Assembly: GCA_021775995.1 (NCBI GenBank)
Contig: JAJFGS010000013.1
Span: 558,001 to 622,000, forward strand
DNA length: 64,000 bases
Source of the DNA: Alphaproteobacteria bacterium
GTDB taxonomy: Bacteria; Pseudomonadota; Alphaproteobacteria; Micavibrionales; Micavibrionaceae
Direction: 5' to 3'
In this document: one piece after another, positions 2,259-51,327 of the stretch
Layout of the letters: each line of letters begins with the position of its first letter
Position numbering within the stretch: position 1 is the first letter of the stretch
Translations under genes and position numbers: made by a program
Notes under the pieces: generated by a model
Databases searched by the model: none
What the model saw: the letters and a program-made list of their open reading frames with translations, nothing else
Told to the model about the DNA's origin: nothing

Positions 2259-5200
2259 ATGTCTAAACTCGCTGATTTTGTTCATTTGCATGTGCATTCT
2301 GCCTATTCACTGGCGGAAGGGGCTATTCGTATCAATGAATTAGTCGAGCTTTGCACAGCAGACAAAATGCCTGCTGTTGCCGTTACCGATACAAATAATA
2401 TGTTTGGCGCACTGGAGTTTTCTTTAGAAGCCACAGGCAAAGGTGTTCAACCCATTATTGGTGCGCAAGTGAATGTTGGTGAAGCTGAACAACAACTTGT
2501 CTTACTCGTACAAAATGATGTTGGTTATAGAAATCTTTCCAAAATAATCAGTGACGCCTATATGGAAGGCGATGTTTCTAAATCTGTAGCGACGAGTTTT
2601 GAATCTCTCAAAGCACATAGTAATGGGCTTATTTGTTTGTCGGGAGGTTCCATTAAAGGTTTCAGAGAAGAAAAAGATATTCTTCAATTAAAAGAAATTT
2701 ACGGTGACCGCTTTTATATCGAATTACAGCGGCATGGTTTACGTGAAGAAGAATTGCATGAACCTGCCTTAATTGAATTGGCTTATGCGCATGATATCCC
2801 TTTGGTTGCAACAAATGACGCCTATTTCACAACCCCTGAAATGCATCAAGCTCACGATGCCTTACTCTGTATTGCCGAAGGCCGTTATATTACTGAAGAT
2901 GATCGTCACAAAGCCACGAAAGAACATTACTTCAAAACACCAGATGAAATGATAGAACTGTTTAAGGATTTACCTGAAGCCGTCAGCAATACTGTTTTAA
3001 TTGCTCAAAGATGTTCTTTTATTTTAAAAACCATTGATCCTATCCTACCACCTTTCAAAACAGAGAGTGGCCGCTCAGAAGTTGAAGAATTAAATGAGCA
3101 AGTTAAAACAGGGCTGCAATGGCGTCTTGACAACTTTACCAACCATGCCGAAACCAAAGCCTATTGGGAACGAATGGATTATGAATTGGGTATCATTAAC
3201 GACATGGGTTTTCCCGGATATTTCCTAATCTGTGCCGATTTTATCAATTGGGCAAAAGACCATAACATCCCTGTTGGTCCAGGCCGTGGCTCTGGTGCGG
3301 GTTCTGTTGTGGCGTGGGCGTTAAAGATTACAGACCTTGACCCCCTTCAATTTGATTTACTATTTGAGCGTTTTTTGAATCCTGAACGTATATCTATGCC
3401 CGACTTTGATATCGACTTTTGTCAGGATCGACGCGAAGAAGTTATAAAATATGTTCAAGATCGCTATGGGCATGACCACGTTGCTCAAATTATTACCTTT
3501 GGTAAATTACAAGCCCGCGCGGTGGTACGAGATGTTGGTCGTGTCCTTCAAATGCCCTATGGCTTGGTTGACCGCATTGCCAAAATGATTCCAAACAATC
3601 CGGCGGCACCGACAACATTACAAGAAGCGTTAGATGCTGACCCTGATTTTAGATTAGAGATTAAAAAAGATGAGACCTCTGAAAAGCTGATTGATATTGC
3701 CTTAAAGTTAGAAGGGTTGTTCCGTCATGCCTCTACCCATGCGGCAGGCTTGGTGATTGGCGATAGACCATTGCATGAACTTGTCCCGCTTTATCGTGAT
3801 CCACGCTCTACTATGCCCGTAACACAGTTCAACATGAAATATGTAGAGCAAGCTGGCTTGGTGAAGTTCGATTTCTTGGGTTTAAAAACGCTAACCGTTA
3901 TTCAAAAGTCGGTTGAGTTTATTAAAGAAGTTAAAAACGAAGATATTGATATCCTGCAAATTCCTTTTGATGATAAAAAGTCATTCCAGATGCTTGCCAA
4001 AGGAGATGCCGTCGGCGTGTTCCAATTAGAGAGTGCAGGAATGCGTGATTTAGGCAAACAAATTAAAATTTCTGCCTTTGAGCAAATTATTGCGATGGTG
4101 GCGCTTTATCGCCCAGGCCCGATGGAAAATATTCCAAAATATTTGGCCTGTCTGAATGGGCAAGAAGAACGTGATTACATGCACGAAAAACTTCAACCTG
4201 TTTTGGAAGAAACATATGGCGTGATGATTTATCAGGAGCAGGTGCTTCAAGCCGCGCAGATTTTAGCGGGTTATTCCTTAGGGGCTGCCGATTTATTGCG
4301 GAAAGCGATGGGAAAGAAAATTCAAGCCGTCATGGATGCCGAGCGGGAAAAATTTGTTCGAGGCGCATTTGAACATAATCAAATCCCAGAAAAATTAGGC
4401 AATCATATCTTTGACCAAATCGCAAAATTTGCGGGCTATGGCTTTAACAAAGCTCACTCGGCAGGGTATGCCTTGGTCTCGTATCAAACAGCATGGCTCA
4501 AAGCCAATTACCCTGTTGAATTTATGGCAGCGTCAATGACTTTGGACGCAGGCAACACAGATAAGCTCAGTGTCTTTAAACAAGAGCTTGACCGTATGGG
4601 TGTTGATTTATTACCACCAGATATAAATAAGTCTGGTGTAATGTTTAAAGTTGAAGAAGGTTGTGTTCGTTACGCTCTTGCCGCTCTAAAGGGTGTGGGT
4701 GAGGGGGCCATGGAGAAGATTATTGCCGAACGTGATACCAATGGTGACTTCAAGGACATAGAAGATTTTATGGGACGGCTTGATGCCAAAGTCATGAATA
4801 AACGTCAATTTGATGGGCTTATCTGCGCAGGGGCTTTTGATTCTTTCAACCCCAATCGCTCTGAACTTCATGGCAATATTGAAATGTTACTACGTCACGC
4901 AAGCTCATTAGCCGAAGAACGCGAAAGCGGGCAATCCAGCCTATTTGGTGGTGAGGCGGTAGGTAGTGAAATGCCAGCCTATGCACCGACAGAACCATGG
5001 GATCAGTTAGAAAAACTTTCTCATGAATTTGATGCTGTCGGATTTTATCTCTCGGCGCATCCACTCGATGCGCGTATGGATCAATTAGAAAAAATGGGAA
5101 TAACCCCTCTTAAACATGTGGCACAAAAAATCAGCCGTAGCCCATCAGGGCGTGTGCACATGGCAGGTGTTCTTATTCGTAAGCAAGAACGGGTATCGGC

Positions 5201-28893: not shown

Positions 28894-29460
28894 TTAAATA
28901 ATATCTAAAAAGTTTTTGAGCAGGTCATGGCCGTGTTTAGTCGCAATACTTTCAGGGTGAAATTGAACACCATGAATAGGCTTGGTTTTATGCTGCACAC
29001 CCATAATCACCCCATCATCCGTTTTTGCGGTAACGTCTAAACAATCAGGCATAGTTGCAGGTTCTATGGTTAATGAATGATAACGTGTGGCTTCAAATGG
29101 GGTCGGTAAAGTTTTGAACACACTTTGACTATCATGGTGAATATCCGAAGTTTTTCCATGCATCGGATGAACACGAACAATATCACCACCAAAAACTTGC
29201 CCAATAGCTTGATGTCCTAAACACACACCAAAAAGTGGCATATCTTGTTCAGCCGCTTGGGTTATCACATCCAGACAAATACCCGCATGATCAGGGTCAC
29301 TTGGTCCAGGAGAAATGACGATGGCTTTAGGTTTCAAGTCAAAAATCTCGTCCACGCCAATCTGATCATTACGATAAACAGAGGTTTCCGTGCCCAAATC
29401 ACCAAAATATTGAACAAGGTTGTATGTAAAACTATCGTAATTATCTATAAGCACAATCAT
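28894..29460 (-). CDS. trpG: Anthranilate synthase component II (glutamine amidotransferase)
   Basis: 188 residues from the ATG at 29460, chosen because MIVLIDNYDSFTYNLVQYFG is the family start; a longer frame begins 25 codons earlier and would overlap the divergent deacetylase gene. Class I amidotransferase motifs: the nucleophile cysteine in GVCLGHQAIGQ and the catalytic His-Pro-Glu in VQFHPESIAT. It supplies ammonia to TrpE, whose gene is 2.5 kb away at 32022-33524. It could also serve folate (PabA) synthesis. Confidence 0.94.
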   Translation of the reverse strand: MIVLIDNYDSFTYNLVQYFGDLGTETSVYRNDQIGVDEIFDLKPKAIVISPGPSDPDHAGICLDVITQAAEQDMPLFGVCLGHQAIGQVFGGDIVRVHPMHGKTSDIHHDSQSVFKTLPTPFEATRYHSLTIEPATMPDCLDVTAKTDDGVIMGVQHKTKPIHGVQFHPESIATKHGHDLLKNFLDII

Positions 29461-29517
29461 GGCAATAGTTATGCCGTGACGCTGGACGGAAAGCAAGTCT
29501 ATTGCTAGGCTTATGAC

Positions 29518-30693
29518 ATGAGTCTGAATAAGCATTCGCCTAAAAAGAACCCTTTAAAACCACACCGTAATTTCAAAGATTTTATAAAATTTATTGGAAT
29601 TGCAGTGCTTTTAATTTTTCTTGTTAAGTTTGTGATTTTTAAAGATGAACGACCTTATATCACGAAAATGAAACAAGATTATTATGCGAACGAAGCTGAG
29701 ATGGAAAAAGCCATTGAAGAAGCCTTACCCCCAAAAATTGTTTTTCCTGAAACAGGAGAAGAATATTTTGAAGCCCCCGAATTGATTTTAAAAGACAAAC
29801 AATCTTTACTGCGTGAAAAACAGTTTAATATTACCAAATTAAGACCGGATGCTTTACCGCCCAAAAAACGAAAAGCCCGCAAAAAATTTACGGGTGGGAA
29901 AGCGAAGATTGCTATTGTTATCGATGATGTTGGTATGAATATCAAACAAAGTAACGCAGCGATAAATCTTCCGAACGAAGTCACGCTTGCCATGCTACCC
30001 TATGCAAAAACAGTGCGTGACTTAGCCAAAAAAGCAAAAGCCAAAGGACATGAACTCATTATCCATACGCCGATGGAGGCGATGAACGATGATGTTTCGC
30101 TTGGCTCTATGGCTTTATATACCGATATGGGTCGTAAAGAATTTCAAGACGAGTTTAATAAAATTGCAAATTCTTTTGAAGGTTATGTCGGCGTCAACAA
30201 TCATATGGGCAGTCGATTAACGCAAGACACCAAAGCGATGGATATGTTAATGAGAGAATTGAACAAAAGGGGTTTGTTTTTTTTGGATTCGAAAACAATC
30301 GGCAACTCCATCGCCGCACAAACAGCCGAAACACATGGTATCCCCAATGTGACGCGTGATATTTTTTTAGATCATGAAGGAACAGCAGAATTTGTTTTAA
30401 ACGCCCTGAAAAAGACAGAACGTGTCGCACGGCAAACAGGATCTGCGATTGCGATTGGTCATCCAAAGAAAGTCACGATGGCCGCTTTACGACGATGGAT
30501 TCCAACATTGGAAGACAAGGGATTTGAGCTTGTCCCCTTAAGTACGCTCGTTAATCCACCTAAAAAACCTGTTGTTAAAGAGGCCAAAATAGAAGAGATA
30601 AAGGCGATAGAACCAGCCGCAGGAGAGCTTATAAAGCAAATTCAGCTCGTCAAAAAACAGATTTCACCGCAGATTTCTTACCCTGTAGAATAG
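29518..30693 (+). CDS. Divergent polysaccharide deacetylase family protein
   Basis: 391 residues. One N-terminal membrane helix (about residues 20-42, FIKFIGIAVLLIFLVKFVIF) anchors a periplasmic domain. The catalytic-type domain begins near residue 130 with KIAIVIDDVGMNIKQS and includes TLAMLPYA, GHELIIHTPMEAM, GVNNHMGSRLTQ and FFLDSKT, the signature of the divergent polysaccharide deacetylase family (YibQ group). The true substrate is not known; cell-wall roles have been proposed. A Lys/Glu-rich tail (345-391) is of low complexity. It is divergent from trpG, with the starts 57 bases apart. Confidence 0.88.
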   Translation: MSLNKHSPKKNPLKPHRNFKDFIKFIGIAVLLIFLVKFVIFKDERPYITKMKQDYYANEAEMEKAIEEALPPKIVFPETGEEYFEAPELILKDKQSLLREKQFNITKLRPDALPPKKRKARKKFTGGKAKIAIVIDDVGMNIKQSNAAINLPNEVTLAMLPYAKTVRDLAKKAKAKGHELIIHTPMEAMNDDVSLGSMALYTDMGRKEFQDEFNKIANSFEGYVGVNNHMGSRLTQDTKAMDMLMRELNKRGLFFLDSKTIGNSIAAQTAETHGIPNVTRDIFLDHEGTAEFVLNALKKTERVARQTGSAIAIGHPKKVTMAALRRWIPTLEDKGFELVPLSTLVNPPKKPVVKEAKIEEIKAIEPAAGELIKQIQLVKKQISPQISYPVE

Positions 30694-30732
30694 CCTGAAA
30701 TGACATAGTTTCCTTTTAAGGGAATATTTTTA

Positions 30733-30760
30733 TTGCCATAATTTATCTATTGTGTATAGT
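30733..30760 (+). promoter_or_regulatory. Promoter of the first tandem membrane-protein gene
   Basis: TTGCCA (30733-30738) and TATAGT (30755-30760), 16 bases apart. The surrounding bases resemble those upstream of the second gene (both have a CAATAATT stretch about 10 bases after the -10), which indicates that the promoter was duplicated with the gene. Confidence 0.55.
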
Positions 30761-30801
30761 ACGCTCAATAATTCAAAGCAGGCTGACATAAAGGATGGGG
30801 C

Positions 30802-31419
30802 ATGACTGGAACTTTTTTGACTGGAACTATATTTTTAACTGGAACTACATTTTTAGAAAAAAATGCAGAGTTAAAAAATAAAAACAAACAAAATGCCATC
30901 ACTCAAGATGCTATTACTTATGCATTTGAAAAGTTGATAAGGGATTTCAAAGGAATAGACGAAACCGTCGGTCATGATAATATCACAGTTGATTTTGATG
31001 GCGCCAATCCAAACGCAAACCTGCTTCAAAGAATGGGGCGCACAACCTTTCCTGTCATTATCCGTAATTTAACAAAAGAAGATATATCAAAAAATGTGAG
31101 CTTTCAAGAATATAAAGACCTTGTTTTAGATGAAGGCTTTGATGTAGGCATCAAACAAACATACTCTAATAGCTATTACGAACGGGATGCCAAGAAGTCT
31201 CCTCCAACATTTGCTGCTGGTGTTCTAGGTGCTCTTACTACAATATTTACTGTTGCATCTGTAATACCGCCAGAAGATTTTATAAGTAAGGCTCTGGTGA
31301 CTTTAGGAGTCGGGACTCCATCTTTAGTCGCTCTCTTCGTCTCTTCAACTAGTATGTCTCCAGCAACTTGTGAATTAAAATTCACTCGCAAACCTCCTCT
31401 TCCGTATAAAATAGGTTAA
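30802..31419 (+). CDS. Orphan membrane protein, tandem paralogue 1
   Basis: Not recognised. 205 residues. The N-terminus is a threefold repeat of TGT(x)FL (residues 2-17), encoded by near-repeats of about 18 bases. A charged domain follows (DAITYAFEKLIRD, DFDGANPNANLLQRMGRTTF), then two hydrophobic segments, about residues 138-160 and 165-188, and the ending KPPLPYKIG. The next gene is a clear paralogue: DAIT(Y/F)AFEKLI, (D/N)G(A/V)NPNAN and PYKI are shared. No signal peptide. AAGGAT before the ATG is a fair ribosome-binding site. Together with its neighbour it separates trpGDC from trpE. Confidence 0.7.
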   Translation: MTGTFLTGTIFLTGTTFLEKNAELKNKNKQNAITQDAITYAFEKLIRDFKGIDETVGHDNITVDFDGANPNANLLQRMGRTTFPVIIRNLTKEDISKNVSFQEYKDLVLDEGFDVGIKQTYSNSYYERDAKKSPPTFAAGVLGALTTIFTVASVIPPEDFISKALVTLGVGTPSLVALFVSSTSMSPATCELKFTRKPPLPYKIG

Positions 31420-31429
31420 CGCTTGCGTA

Positions 31430-31457
31430 TTGACATAAGGTTTCTCTTGTGCATAAT
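31430..31457 (+). promoter_or_regulatory. Promoter of the second tandem membrane-protein gene
   Basis: TTGACA (31430-31435) and CATAAT (31452-31457), 16 bases apart, starting 10 bases after the stop of paralogue 1. Spacing and downstream context match the promoter of the first gene, so each paralogue has its own promoter. Confidence 0.6.
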
Positions 31458-31488
31458 GGCGCCAATAATTTAATACAAGGAATAGACG

Positions 31489-32025
31489 ATGACTACAGCT
31501 ATGATGGCAGAAGAAACTTTAGACACAAGAGAGCAAGACAAGCACGATGCTATCACTTTTGCGTTTGAAAAACTTATCAAGAATGACAAAATAATACAAA
31601 AGGCTGTAAGTAATGATGATGATCGTATTATAGTAAAATTTAACGGGGTCAATCCAAACGCAAACGCAGCTCAAAGGGTTGCGCGAACAATATTTCCTCT
31701 TCCTGTTCCAACGTTAGAAGAAAAAGATATATTAGAAAATCCAACCTTTCAAAAATGTAAAACAGAGACAAGTTTTAATGTAGAACTTGTAGAAGGTCGT
31801 TCTAGTCGTTCAAGTTCAAGATGGTGCAACCGAATCTTTGCTGGCGGTGCGCTACTTGCTGTTGCTACAGCGTTTGCTGATACAGTTATACCACTAGAAA
31901 TGCAGGCCATAGGTTATAGTCTATCAACGGTCTTCATGGCATCGAGTCTGATACAGAATTCTTCGGGAGAAGCTCTATTAAAAATTACACCTAAACCTAC
32001 TGCTCCGTATAAAATAGATCGTTAA
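31489..32025 (+). CDS. Orphan membrane protein, tandem paralogue 2
   Basis: Not recognised. 178 residues. It aligns with the preceding 205-residue protein: DAITFAFEKLIKN, KFNGVNPNANAAQRVARTIFP, then a charged middle, a hydrophobic pair (about residues 115-133 and 140-160) and the ending KPTAPYKIDR. It lacks the TGT(x)FL repeat at the N-terminus. CAAGGAATAGACG precedes the ATG with a good ribosome-binding site. The stop codon overlaps that of convergent trpE by two bases. Confidence 0.7.
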   Translation: MTTAMMAEETLDTREQDKHDAITFAFEKLIKNDKIIQKAVSNDDDRIIVKFNGVNPNANAAQRVARTIFPLPVPTLEEKDILENPTFQKCKTETSFNVELVEGRSSRSSSRWCNRIFAGGALLAVATAFADTVIPLEMQAIGYSLSTVFMASSLIQNSSGEALLKITPKPTAPYKIDR

Positions 32026-33524
32026 TTCTTATCGCGCTGCGCTAGCTCAATCGCGTCTTCAGCCGCCTGAATGACGGCTTTGGCTTTGTTACAGGACTCG
32101 ATATATTCGGATTCAGGATCACTATCGGCAACGACACCGCCGCCAGCCTGCACGTAGACTTTACCGTCTTTAACAAGGGCGGTGCGCAGAGCGATACAAG
32201 TATCTAAATCCCCATTACCATCTAAATAACCCACACAGCCTGCATAGGTAGATCTTTTTGTTGGTTCAAGTTCGTCAATAATTTCCATCGAGCGGATTTT
32301 TGGCGCACCGCTGGTTGTTCCCGCAGGAAAACCCGCAAAGAGCGCATCGAGCGAGTCCATGCCGTCTTTTAATTTCCCTTCAACATTCGACACAATATGC
32401 ATGACATGAGAGTAATTTTCGACGGTGAATTGATCGGTGACCTCAACTGTAGAAATATCTGCCACGCGCCCAATATCATTACGCCCTAAATCAAGAAGCA
32501 TAAGATGTTCTGCGCGCTCTTTCGGATCACTCAATAAATCTTCCATCAACGCTTTATCTTCGGCAGCATCTTTGCCGCGCTTACGTGTACCTGCGATAGG
32601 ACGAATAGTCACAACATTATCACGAGAGCGAACAAGAATTTCTGGACTGGACCCCACCAATGAAAAGCCATCAAAGTTGATATAGAAAAGAAAAGGTGAG
32701 GGGTTTAAGCGACGAAGCGAGCGATAAAGATCAAAGGCGGGTAAATCAAAATCAACACTGAAACGTTGAGACAGAACAGCCTGAAAAATATCACCCGCTA
32801 AAATATACTCTTTGGCTTTATCAACCATCCCGTGAAACTCTTCCTGACTCATATTACTTTGTTGTTTTAAAGGCAGGTCGAGCTTGGTTTCACTATGCAA
32901 CATCACCCCATCAACAGGGTTCATCAGCTTGTTATAAACACCATCAATACGGCTAACGGCTTGGGCATAAATGGTTTCGGCACTACCATTACAATTGTTT
33001 TTATGGTCACGAACAGGCGTGACAAGACACATCATGTTTTTTACATTATCAAACAAAACCATGACCGTTGGACGCATCATCACACTGTCGGGTACGCCGA
33101 TTTCATCCGGATTATTATCAGGAATATCTTCAACCAAACGAATACAATCATAGCCCATATAACCAAATAGACCTGAAGGCCCCATTGGTGGAATGGTTTC
33201 GTCAACAACATCAATTTTACAATTTTTTAATTGTGCACGAAGAGAAGGGAGCGGGTCTTCATCTTGAACATCATCGTTCAATGTCACCTTATTATCCTGA
33301 TACTTCCAAATTAAGTCAGGCTCCAACCCAATAGCAGAGTAGCGACCCAAAACTGCACCACCCTCAACAGATTCAAGAAGCAGGCTGTACGGTTTGTCTT
33401 TTGATAATTTTAAAAAGGCAGAAACGGGGGTTTCAAGATCCGCAGAAATCCACTGCCAAACAAGCTGAGTCTTTCCAGCCGCAAAATGTGTCTTAAAATC
33501 ATTTATATTGGGAAATATGTTCAT
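32022..33524 (-). CDS. trpE: Anthranilate synthase component I
   Basis: 500 residues. The N-terminal domain contains the tryptophan-binding region (LLESVEGGAVLGRYS); the C-terminal chorismate-binding domain has GDIFQAVLSQRFSVDF, PSPFLFYINFDGFSLVGSSPE, RPIAGTRKRG, AHLMLLDLGRNDIGRV and the ending VQAGGGVVADSDPESEY. It makes anthranilate from chorismate with ammonia from TrpG. Feedback inhibition by tryptophan is likely from the conserved LLES. It stands apart from trpGDC, which is common in alphaproteobacteria. No leader peptide with Trp codons was found upstream. Confidence 0.96.
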   Translation of the reverse strand: MNIFPNINDFKTHFAAGKTQLVWQWISADLETPVSAFLKLSKDKPYSLLLESVEGGAVLGRYSAIGLEPDLIWKYQDNKVTLNDDVQDEDPLPSLRAQLKNCKIDVVDETIPPMGPSGLFGYMGYDCIRLVEDIPDNNPDEIGVPDSVMMRPTVMVLFDNVKNMMCLVTPVRDHKNNCNGSAETIYAQAVSRIDGVYNKLMNPVDGVMLHSETKLDLPLKQQSNMSQEEFHGMVDKAKEYILAGDIFQAVLSQRFSVDFDLPAFDLYRSLRRLNPSPFLFYINFDGFSLVGSSPEILVRSRDNVVTIRPIAGTRKRGKDAAEDKALMEDLLSDPKERAEHLMLLDLGRNDIGRVADISTVEVTDQFTVENYSHVMHIVSNVEGKLKDGMDSLDALFAGFPAGTTSGAPKIRSMEIIDELEPTKRSTYAGCVGYLDGNGDLDTCIALRTALVKDGKVYVQAGGGVVADSDPESEYIESCNKAKAVIQAAEDAIELAQRDKN

Positions 33525-33542
33525 GCTTTTCTTACTAGGGCA

Positions 33543-33637
33543 TCATTGCCTGAATTTAAAAAGTAAATTCTAGGGCAATCCATTTAAAAACCTCTAGATT
33601 CCCCTAGAATTTTTTTATAAAAAATTCAGGGAATGAC
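33543..33637. repeat. Long imperfect inverted repeat between ppiD and trpE
   Basis: Inner arms AAATTCTAGGG (33565-33575) and CCCTAGAATTT (33602-33612) are perfectly complementary, and outer arms CCTGAATTT (33549-33557) and AAATTCAGG (33622-33630) also are; together they form about 30 bases of imperfect stem on each side. The ends CATTGCC and GGAATGACG resemble the GTCATTCC repeat family. It lies in the 128-base gap between ppiD's stop and trpE's start and would fold into a large hairpin on the reverse-strand message. It may end ppiD transcription. Confidence 0.75.
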
Positions 33638-49082: not shown

Positions 49083-49802
49083 ATGAGTAATTTTTTTGGT
49101 AAATTAGAAAAGCTTCAAGAGGTCGTTAAAACTTGTGGTTTTAAAGGGAGTTGGACTGATATTGAGTATGGTCATAGCTTTAGAGGGGAAGGTAAACAAA
49201 TTTTGAATTTTTACCCTAAAAAGGGGACTATTTTATTTCAAGGTAAAAATACTGGTAATTTTAAAGAAATTATTGAATCCAAGCTAACAGGTGGCGAAAC
49301 TGCAAATGTTACCTCTATTGACGCAGACAAAAAATCTCAAAAAATATTTGTTGTACATGGACATGACCACGAGGCACGAGATCAGCTTGAACTTGTTTTA
49401 AGAAGGTTAGGTTTGGAACCTTTTATTTTAATGAATAATTCTGGAGGTGGAAAAACTATTGTAGAAGCTCTAGAAAAACACATTTATGAAGAATCTGCAT
49501 TCGGTATAATATTGCTTACTCCTGATGATTATGGTTATGCAAAAAGTGAAACGGAAGCGGATAAGAAACCAAGAGCCCGTCAAAATGTAATACTTGAAAT
49601 GGGTATGGTTATGGCTTCATTAGGTCGCGAAAAAATGGTTTTAATTAAAAGAGGTGCTGTAGATTTACCTTCAGATACACAAGGTATGATTTATCTTGAG
49701 TATAATGATAATATTAAAGACATTGTTCCAAAGCTTGTTCAGAATATGAAAGAAGCTGGAATTGATGTTGATATAAATAAAATTACAGAAGCAGCAGCTT
49801 AA
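49083..49802 (+). CDS. TIR-like domain protein (CAP12/Pycsar-type predicted nucleotide-binding protein)
   Basis: 239 residues. Residues 86-215 match the PF10137-type TIR domain: KIFVVHGHDHEARD, then GGGKTIVEALE, FGIILLTPDDYG, RARQNVILEMGMVMASLGRE (the glutamate, residue 172, is at the expected NADase position) and DLPSDTQGMIYLE. Members of this family are NAD-cleaving effectors in anti-phage systems such as CBASS and Pycsar. Residues 1-75 are a separate small domain (ILNFYPKKGTILFQGKN) that by eye resembles the TBP-like start of RNase HIII; this is weak. No cyclase gene is near. It lies between lpdA and lipA, has AAGGAG before the ATG, and is AT-rich (49201-49260 has 15 G+C in 60; lipA 49981-50040 has 28). 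Confidence 0.85.
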   Translation: MSNFFGKLEKLQEVVKTCGFKGSWTDIEYGHSFRGEGKQILNFYPKKGTILFQGKNTGNFKEIIESKLTGGETANVTSIDADKKSQKIFVVHGHDHEARDQLELVLRRLGLEPFILMNNSGGGKTIVEALEKHIYEESAFGIILLTPDDYGYAKSETEADKKPRARQNVILEMGMVMASLGREKMVLIKRGAVDLPSDTQGMIYLEYNDNIKDIVPKLVQNMKEAGIDVDINKITEAAA

Positions 49803-50769: not shown

Positions 50770-51327
50770 ATGAGTTCTTTCGAAATAATTTTAGCTATTT
50801 TAGGTGCTTTGGGATTTGGTTCAATTCTGGGTCAACTTGCTAACGAATATATTATTAGAAGAAATAATCGTATTGAAGGATACGCCCAACCAATTTTTAT
50901 AAAAAGGTTAGAAATATATGAGGGGCTATATAATAAAATAACCGAAATGAATGAATTGCTTACAAAAGTTATCGAAGACAAACAATATTCTAAAGACGAA
51001 AGAAAGGAACTAATTAGCAGTCTTGTTTTTGATACAATATCTTATTGTGATAAGCATGATTTCTATCTGAATGAAGAACTAACGGTTGAATCAATTGCCT
51101 ATCCCATGGGAGTAGAAGATATATTTTATATGTCAGATGCAGAAAAAAAAGATGCTATCAAACGGCATGATCTACAAAGAAGAAAATTAAAAAAAATGAT
51201 TAGAGAGTGCTCAGGAATAACAAAAATCGAAAAGTTATTTTTTGATATACATAAACCAAAGCTGGATAGTGACCTCATAAAGTATTTTAATTCGTTAAAG
51301 AAAAAACACGGTTTTATAGAAAAATAA
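50770..51327 (+). CDS. Orphan membrane-anchored protein after lipA
   Basis: Not recognised. 185 residues: one N-terminal membrane helix (about residues 5-24, EIILAILGALGFGSILGQLA) followed by a basic RRNNR stretch and a soluble, mostly helical cytoplasmic domain rich in Lys, Glu and Ile (KRLEIYEGLYNKITEMNELL; HDLQRRKLKKMIRECSG). It is clearly more AT-rich than lipA (51181-51240 has 14 G+C in 60). It begins four bases after lipA and ends five before the coq10-type gene, in line with the operon. With the TIR-like gene it is the second foreign-looking gene of this operon; a functional link is inference. Confidence 0.75.
   Translation: MSSFEIILAILGALGFGSILGQLANEYIIRRNNRIEGYAQPIFIKRLEIYEGLYNKITEMNELLTKVIEDKQYSKDERKELISSLVFDTISYCDKHDFYLNEELTVESIAYPMGVEDIFYMSDAEKKDAIKRHDLQRRKLKKMIRECSGITKIEKLFFDIHKPKLDSDLIKYFNSLKKKHGFIEK

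Follow-up and report, generated by a model that had tools for sequence, protein, structure and literature searches.

Judged by their sequences, the tandem genes A and B are a real pair of paralogues, and their products belong to an undescribed protein family that, as far as searched, is confined to one family of the Micavibrio lineage, that of the window itself (the whole 64,000-nucleotide stretch of DNA analysed here; it lies within G000:C5, G000 being the window's own genome of 1,996,750 bases in 15 contigs). The reading we favour, with about even confidence, is that of a fast-evolving lineage family whose gene was probably duplicated with its promoter in the G000 line, and whose two products each work alone as a membrane-tethered binding or adaptor protein.

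The tandem pair and the deacetylase-trpE junction

The genes and the elements around them are as follows.

30731..30776, plus strand: upstream block of A, homologous to that of B (local alignment)
30733..30760, plus strand: predicted sigma70-type promoter-like site of A, TTGCCA-16-TATAGT (consensus scan, 10/12)
30802..31419, plus strand: gene A, 205 aa, intact ORF; alpha/beta domain interrupted by a hydrophobic hairpin (deduced from homology with the model of B)
30803..30855, plus strand: 18-nt tandem repeat, 2.3-2.8 copies (Tandem Repeats Finder), coding for the TGTFLTGTIFLTGTTFL start of A
31428..31473, plus strand: upstream block of B, homologous to that of A (local alignment)
31430..31457, plus strand: predicted sigma70-type promoter-like site of B, TTGACA-16-CATAAT (consensus scan, 11/12)
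31489..32025, plus strand: gene B, 178 aa (ORF and AlphaFold2 model)

The two ORFs lie where the first-pass annotation had placed a tandem duplication, and the blocks it had listed as shared (DAITxAFEKLI, GxNPNANxxQR and a terminal PYKI) are all present in both proteins, the first two as DAIT(Y/F)AFEKLI and G(A/V)NPNANxxQR. The proteins are 37-40% identical (BLASTP, 66 of 179 aligned columns, 37%, E 6e-26), with a Smith-Waterman score of 222 (2000 shuffles reached 55 at most), and the DNA is 68% identical across a 220-column stretch; the duplication is thus real. The 18-nt repeat, which perhaps originated by slippage, lengthens the N-terminus of A and is absent from B in the A-B alignment. At the other end of the pair, the stop of B overlaps by 4 nt that of the convergent trpE (32022-33524).

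As had been claimed, each gene is preceded by predicted -35 and -10 boxes 16 bases apart. Both sites are among the three best of the 16 found in 29400-33600, that of B being the best of all; the scan alone is nevertheless weak evidence, because sites of such grade are not rare (16, versus 11.2, sd 3.6, in shuffles). The claimed duplication of the upstream regions holds as well: they align with a score of 35 across 47 columns, compared with at most 29 in 1000 shuffles, and the similarity extends beyond the two promoter boxes. Since the upstream regions align with each other, the duplicated unit comprised the upstream region, including the promoter-like site, and the gene. The copy in the sister genome, G005, has a promoter-like site of its own (TTGGCA-16-GATAAT), and its upstream region is no more similar to those of A and B than shuffles are. 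The same scan returned zero sites upstream of a tandem pair of relatives in L085.

The pair was said to be inserted between trpGDC and trpE. Insertion in the trp locus is borne out, but the position was inexact: a divergent polysaccharide deacetylase gene (PF04748; 29518-30693) separates trpGDC from the pair, and the insertion site is therefore deacetylase-trpE rather than a direct trpG-trpE junction. The order trpE (minus), deacetylase (plus), trpG (minus) is old. A deacetylase match was found near trpE in 24 of 30 loci, the window counted, and was absent around trpE in L096, L112, L113, L115, L116 and L117, some loci being short. From deacetylase stop to trpE stop we counted 1328 nt in G000, 658 nt in G005 and, overlaps included, 34 nt or less in 16 of the 22 other deacetylase-bearing loci, counts that are approximate because the frame walk hinges on the alignment end and can misplace a stop. 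The remaining six junctions are longer (L090, 193 nt; L092, 131 nt; L094, 356 nt; L099, 286 nt; L100, 1136 nt; L103, 460 nt), and the gap of L099 still contains deacetylase-like sequence. The deacetylase-trpE space of L094 (genome G008) holds a 100-aa ORF at 3064-3366. In L100 (G003, of the same genus as G008) a 366-aa orphan ORF without a Pfam match lies at 398-1498, between trpE and a shortened deacetylase match limited to residues 9-89.

Among the 30 loci, A/B-type genes occur at this junction only in G000 and G005 (tblastn, E <= 1e-3). G005 carries a single copy, an intact ORF of 185 aa, at the same junction and between the same flanking deacetylase gene and trpE. These comparisons establish the history of the site, in which one family gene would have settled at the junction before G000 and G005 diverged from their common ancestor. 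New genes may enter this convergent junction again and again.

The family evolves fast, as judged by sequence divergence. The G005 copy is only 30% identical to B and 36% to A, compared with 89% for TrpE of the two genomes. By the Nei-Gojobori method with codon bootstrap, where saturation makes the larger values rough, the A-B pair gave dS 0.80 [0.55-1.18], dN 0.49 and omega 0.62 [0.40-0.93], and trpE between G000 and G005 gave dS 1.65 [1.24-2.70] and omega 0.05 [0.03-0.07]. The A-B duplication probably took place in the G000 line once G005 had branched off: this timing is favoured by the A-B upstream similarity and by an A-B dS below that of trpE, and it is only probable because dS for B-G005 (0.95 [0.68-1.37]; omega 0.84 [0.54-1.26]) overlaps that for A-B; dS for A-G005 was 1.71 [1.12-inf]. 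Protein trees built from the hairpin members leave A, B and G005 unsettled (AU p 0.506 for A+B, 0.376 for A+G005 and 0.321 for B+G005). After duplication, probably together with its promoter, the copies would have diverged under weak purifying selection. The divergence between A and B had been taken to suggest distinct roles; since the whole family diverges fast, low identity is not in itself sufficient for that conclusion.

Two other genes of the window were noted. A CAP12/Pycsar-type TIR domain protein is encoded at 49083-49802, plus strand (PF10137, E 5.9e-34), flanked by lpd-like and lipA-like genes (named by eye) in an apparent pyruvate dehydrogenase operon. A 185-aa orphan ORF without a Pfam match follows the lipA-like gene among housekeeping genes (50770-51327, plus strand).

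Relatives and limits of the family

The first-pass annotation had matched the proteins to no known family, and we found no fitting one in Pfam, PHROGs or NCBIfam. The best Pfam match of A had E 0.1 and 12.9 bits against a cut-off of 24.1, and B had none; the best PHROGs match (of B, E 0.079) was below significance, and neither protein had any NCBIfam match. No title about the family was among the matches listed in a literature search.

The iterative profile search that had been proposed returned relatives only in the window's own family, in both the order and the class samples. A single-protein search of 95 genomes recovered two clear relatives besides the genome's own pair, in G005 (9.1e-15) and G043 (1.1e-5); altogether 17 of the 95 were matched at E <= 1, mostly weakly, and rows at E 0.04-0.6 were not counted as members. 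Profile A2 matched 10 of 104 family genomes at E <= 0.1 (G056, G132 and G136, at E 0.003-0.02, were not counted). With profile A3, 12 of 142 order genomes were matched at E <= 0.05, and every one belongs to the window's own family. The rows of A3 came from six of these (G000, G005, G007, G043, G130 and G131). Among the new matches, G050, G004 and G018 had E 4.5e-7 to 3.6e-6, and G019, G058 and G022 are tentative members because their E values were only 0.006 to 0.02. In a 289-genome class sample there was no credible match outside the window's own family; the three matches at E <= 0.01 were the own genome and two judged spurious, G320 and G382. Two further profiles were run on the 142 genomes. 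The soluble-only profile A4 matched 11, one of them (G118) spurious, and the joint profile A8 matched 18, of which 12 were counted as members and G040, G059, G066, G068, G092 and G116 (E 0.002-0.03) were not. G118, G320 and G382 were rejected once their ORFs were read.

Membership was assigned on a profile match over a helix-strand-helix-strand core with an I..N..(F/Y)..Y....G(Y/F)DV-like segment. Such a match was obtained for A: A4, built without A or B, found A at 1.3e-8 and the G005 copy at 3.7e-7. B was not found by A4 at E <= 0.05; its tie to the family is its pairwise homology with A and its match to G005 (9.1e-15). A profile of nine hairpin rows (A6) aligned with the eight soluble rows of A4, no row being shared, at 97.5% probability and E 8e-12 over 101 columns, an alignment that is not independent because the soluble rows were found by profiles seeded with hairpin rows, and in which three of the eight A4 rows (L050, L051 and L052) are tentative, with E 0.006-0.02 per genome in the 142-genome search before they entered the profile. 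The profiles thus reach both kinds of relative, and it appears from sequence that some members have a membrane hairpin and several do not.

A contig search with three close relatives returned JASBUS010000040.1, NZDE01000010.1 and DELD01000020.1 (Micavibrio sp. UBA2705). NCBI taxonomy places the name Micavibrio under Bdellovibrionota, whereas the first two of these contigs are titled Alphaproteobacteria bacterium; we take the lineage to be alphaproteobacterial (Micavibrionales). A scan of genome contigs with B alone confirmed 0 of 158 stretches.

The three matched genomes of genus g35 (G043, G130 and G131) each carry a tandem pair, with copies 17-19 nt apart, plus further single genes; G130 had seven matches with the joint profile. 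Named by eye from translations, the neighbours of the pair are succinate dehydrogenase flavoprotein-like and TsaC-like genes, and one soluble member adjoins a ferredoxin-NADP reductase-like gene in the same three genomes. In G007 (87% complete) one member was found, away from the deacetylase-trpE junction. G004 has one probable member, downstream of one of two similar leader-like stretches seen by eye in L048 (~241-300 and 1101-1160; CAACCTTCTGTCT.AAAAG...GCTTAATGA.AAATG), which may be a regulatory element.

These relatives bear on the first-pass proposal that A and B are two subunits of a heteromeric membrane complex. The genes do stand in tandem, and in the g35 genomes two diverged paralogues lie side by side so closely that a two-subunit arrangement is possible there. 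For A and B, the single copy that G005 carries at this site makes an obligate complex unlikely; in addition, G007 has one member found, elsewhere, A and B follow separate promoter-like sites, and their duplication is probably later than the split from G005.

It is very unlikely that A and B are newly arisen or decaying ORFs with hardly any function or none, although omega is high and two relatives look damaged. A stretch of G131 (G131:C17:12232-12543, L145) is a weak family match (E 0.004) with two internal stops, possibly a broken member. The G004 member has, by eye, an in-frame stop near a possible start (L048:1187-1300), and may therefore be decaying or start further downstream. Set against this, the upper bound of omega for A-B is 0.93, the second copies of g35 have omega 0.20-0.32, and A, B and the G005 copy are intact ORFs, each with a promoter-like site.

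The predicted domain and its hairpin

The annotation had described two hydrophobic segments in each protein. By Kyte-Doolittle averages over 19 residues, both segments of A and the first of B stand, and the second of B is weak.

31210..31266, plus strand: hydrophobic segment 1 of A, residues 137-155 (2.02)
31291..31347, plus strand: hydrophobic segment 2 of A, residues 164-182 (1.69)
31834..31890, plus strand: hydrophobic segment 1 of B, residues 116-134 (1.88); model helix 110-129, pLDDT mostly <50
31897..31953, plus strand: hydrophobic segment 2 of B, residues 137-155 (0.97, weak); model helix 136-155, pLDDT mostly <50

The corresponding maxima in the G005 copy are 1.77 and 1.49, and nine soluble members, three of them tentative, do not exceed 0.96.

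Structure prediction, which had also been proposed, was carried out for B of the two proteins and gave an alpha/beta domain with a hairpin, at modest confidence (AlphaFold2 with a 9-row alignment; mean pLDDT 61.7, pTM 0.52, pLDDT >=70 in 74 of 178 residues). The N-terminal part of the model has helices 2-31 and 33-41, strand 46-51 and helices 60-68, 78-82 and 85-93; the C-terminal part has strand 96-104, helices 110-129 and 136-155 and strand 160-168. The model of a relative from L086 (mean pLDDT 67.1, pTM 0.54; soluble-core blocks 61-88), has the same order of elements plus an extra C-terminal helix. Because the two models agree in this order, the hydrophobic helix pair is predicted to sit between strands 2 and 3. 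The core would thus consist of helices, strand 1, further helices and strands 2 and 3 in a small alpha/beta domain, and A, B and the g35 tandem pairs would have a hydrophobic two-helix hairpin inserted between the last two strands.

Searches for a known fold returned little. PDB sequence searches gave nothing usable, and Foldseek against the PDB gave zero matches at E <= 0.001 both for the model of B and for that of the relative (best 0.054, methyltransferases); the relative's model also had zero matches at E <= 0.001 in a viral library. With VIA-align, B reached a best Z of 3.2 and the relative 6.0, the latter covering the two hairpin helices only. Absence from such lists does not prove the fold new. 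One lead was SpoVS, which has an Alba-like fold. Against the relative's model it aligned over 76-77 of 88-90 residues with rmsd 4.4-4.5 and Z 3.2, which is background and not above unrelated rows. There was no SpoVS Pfam match in A, B or 16 family members, and PF04232 turned up neither in the window's own genome nor in any of the 21 class genomes searched, and in 4 of 14 controls; the lead was dropped.

As far as sequence comparison tells, the hairpin is better conserved in its hydrophobicity than in its sequence. Identities for domain, hairpin and the part after the hairpin are 46, 32 and 59% for A-B, 41, 27 and 44% for A-G005, and 39, 19 and 25% for B-G005. Three pairwise comparisons among the second copies of g35 gave identities of 86-88% for the domain, 46-60% for the hairpin, 89% for the strand that follows it and 47-78% for the tail. 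The divergence of the g35 hairpin beside a conserved domain fits a generic anchor; divergence alone does not mark an anchor, because the C-terminal tail varies about as much. R/K-rich stretches flank the hairpin and D/E occur in its turn (by eye), which suggests that both chain ends are cytoplasmic. With the hairpin inserted in the domain, the soluble part would be held at the inner membrane, on its cytoplasmic face.

Possible roles and known systems

We infer that the proteins bind something that changes fast: rather than forming the two halves of a fixed complex, each would act singly, tethered to the membrane, as a binding or adaptor protein with a quickly changing partner or ligand. A more specific version is possible though doubtful, namely that the hairpin has been gained or lost between the two strands, leaving within one genome soluble and tethered paralogues that diverge fast in the course of a conflict with prey, host or phage.

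A role in conflict, be it in immunity, in abortive infection or as an exported effector, would fit the evolutionary pattern. The genes are small, patchy, fast-diverging and tandemly duplicated and encode a hydrophobic hairpin, as might be expected of membrane-acting immunity proteins, an abortive-infection effector or a toxin pair. Such an identity is improbable all the same: A and B had zero PADLOC matches at E up to 1, their neighbours are housekeeping genes by eye, with no adjacent candidate partner toxin or defence gene, and B had zero tblastn matches in plasmid and phage collections. A scan of viral contigs with three relatives confirmed 0 of 150 stretches, and the PADLOC search gave, for one relative (L085:6001-6624), a match to a short stretch of JetC (E 0.0065).

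Small membrane proteins confined to one lineage are common and tend to be overlooked. As a genomic novelty the A/B family is of an ordinary kind, with one interesting feature, a hairpin, seemingly optional, within a soluble domain. One junction, which in many relatives lacks the gene, can be named as the place where it arrived and where, probably, it was copied in tandem with its promoter. Should its rapid divergence stem from a conflict, the family would give a way into the biology of a predator-related lineage that has been little studied.

Two known systems invite comparison with our preferred reading of tethered binding or adaptor proteins. Chlamydial Inc proteins are patchy and fast-evolving; they leave by type III secretion, and a bilobed hydrophobic segment of two short helices inserts in the inclusion membrane. 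A and B would share the two short hydrophobic helices, and they share the patchiness and the fast evolution. Like these bilobed proteins, they might be exported effectors that insert in a prey or host membrane, a role with which the tight turn, lineage restriction and Micavibrio-lineage relatives are consistent. We regard this as highly improbable: a signal sequence is not obvious by eye and, unlike in Inc proteins, the hairpin is predicted to lie within an alpha/beta domain, and some relatives have none. The other system is that of the YflT / DUF1269-type stress proteins, in which a small alpha/beta domain of ferredoxin-like arrangement is interrupted by a glycine-rich hydrophobic hairpin. 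Neither A nor B matched such a Pfam model at E up to 10, and their predicted order of elements differs from the ferredoxin-like arrangement. The design principle suggested by our modest-confidence models, a hairpin within a small alpha/beta domain, would be the same.
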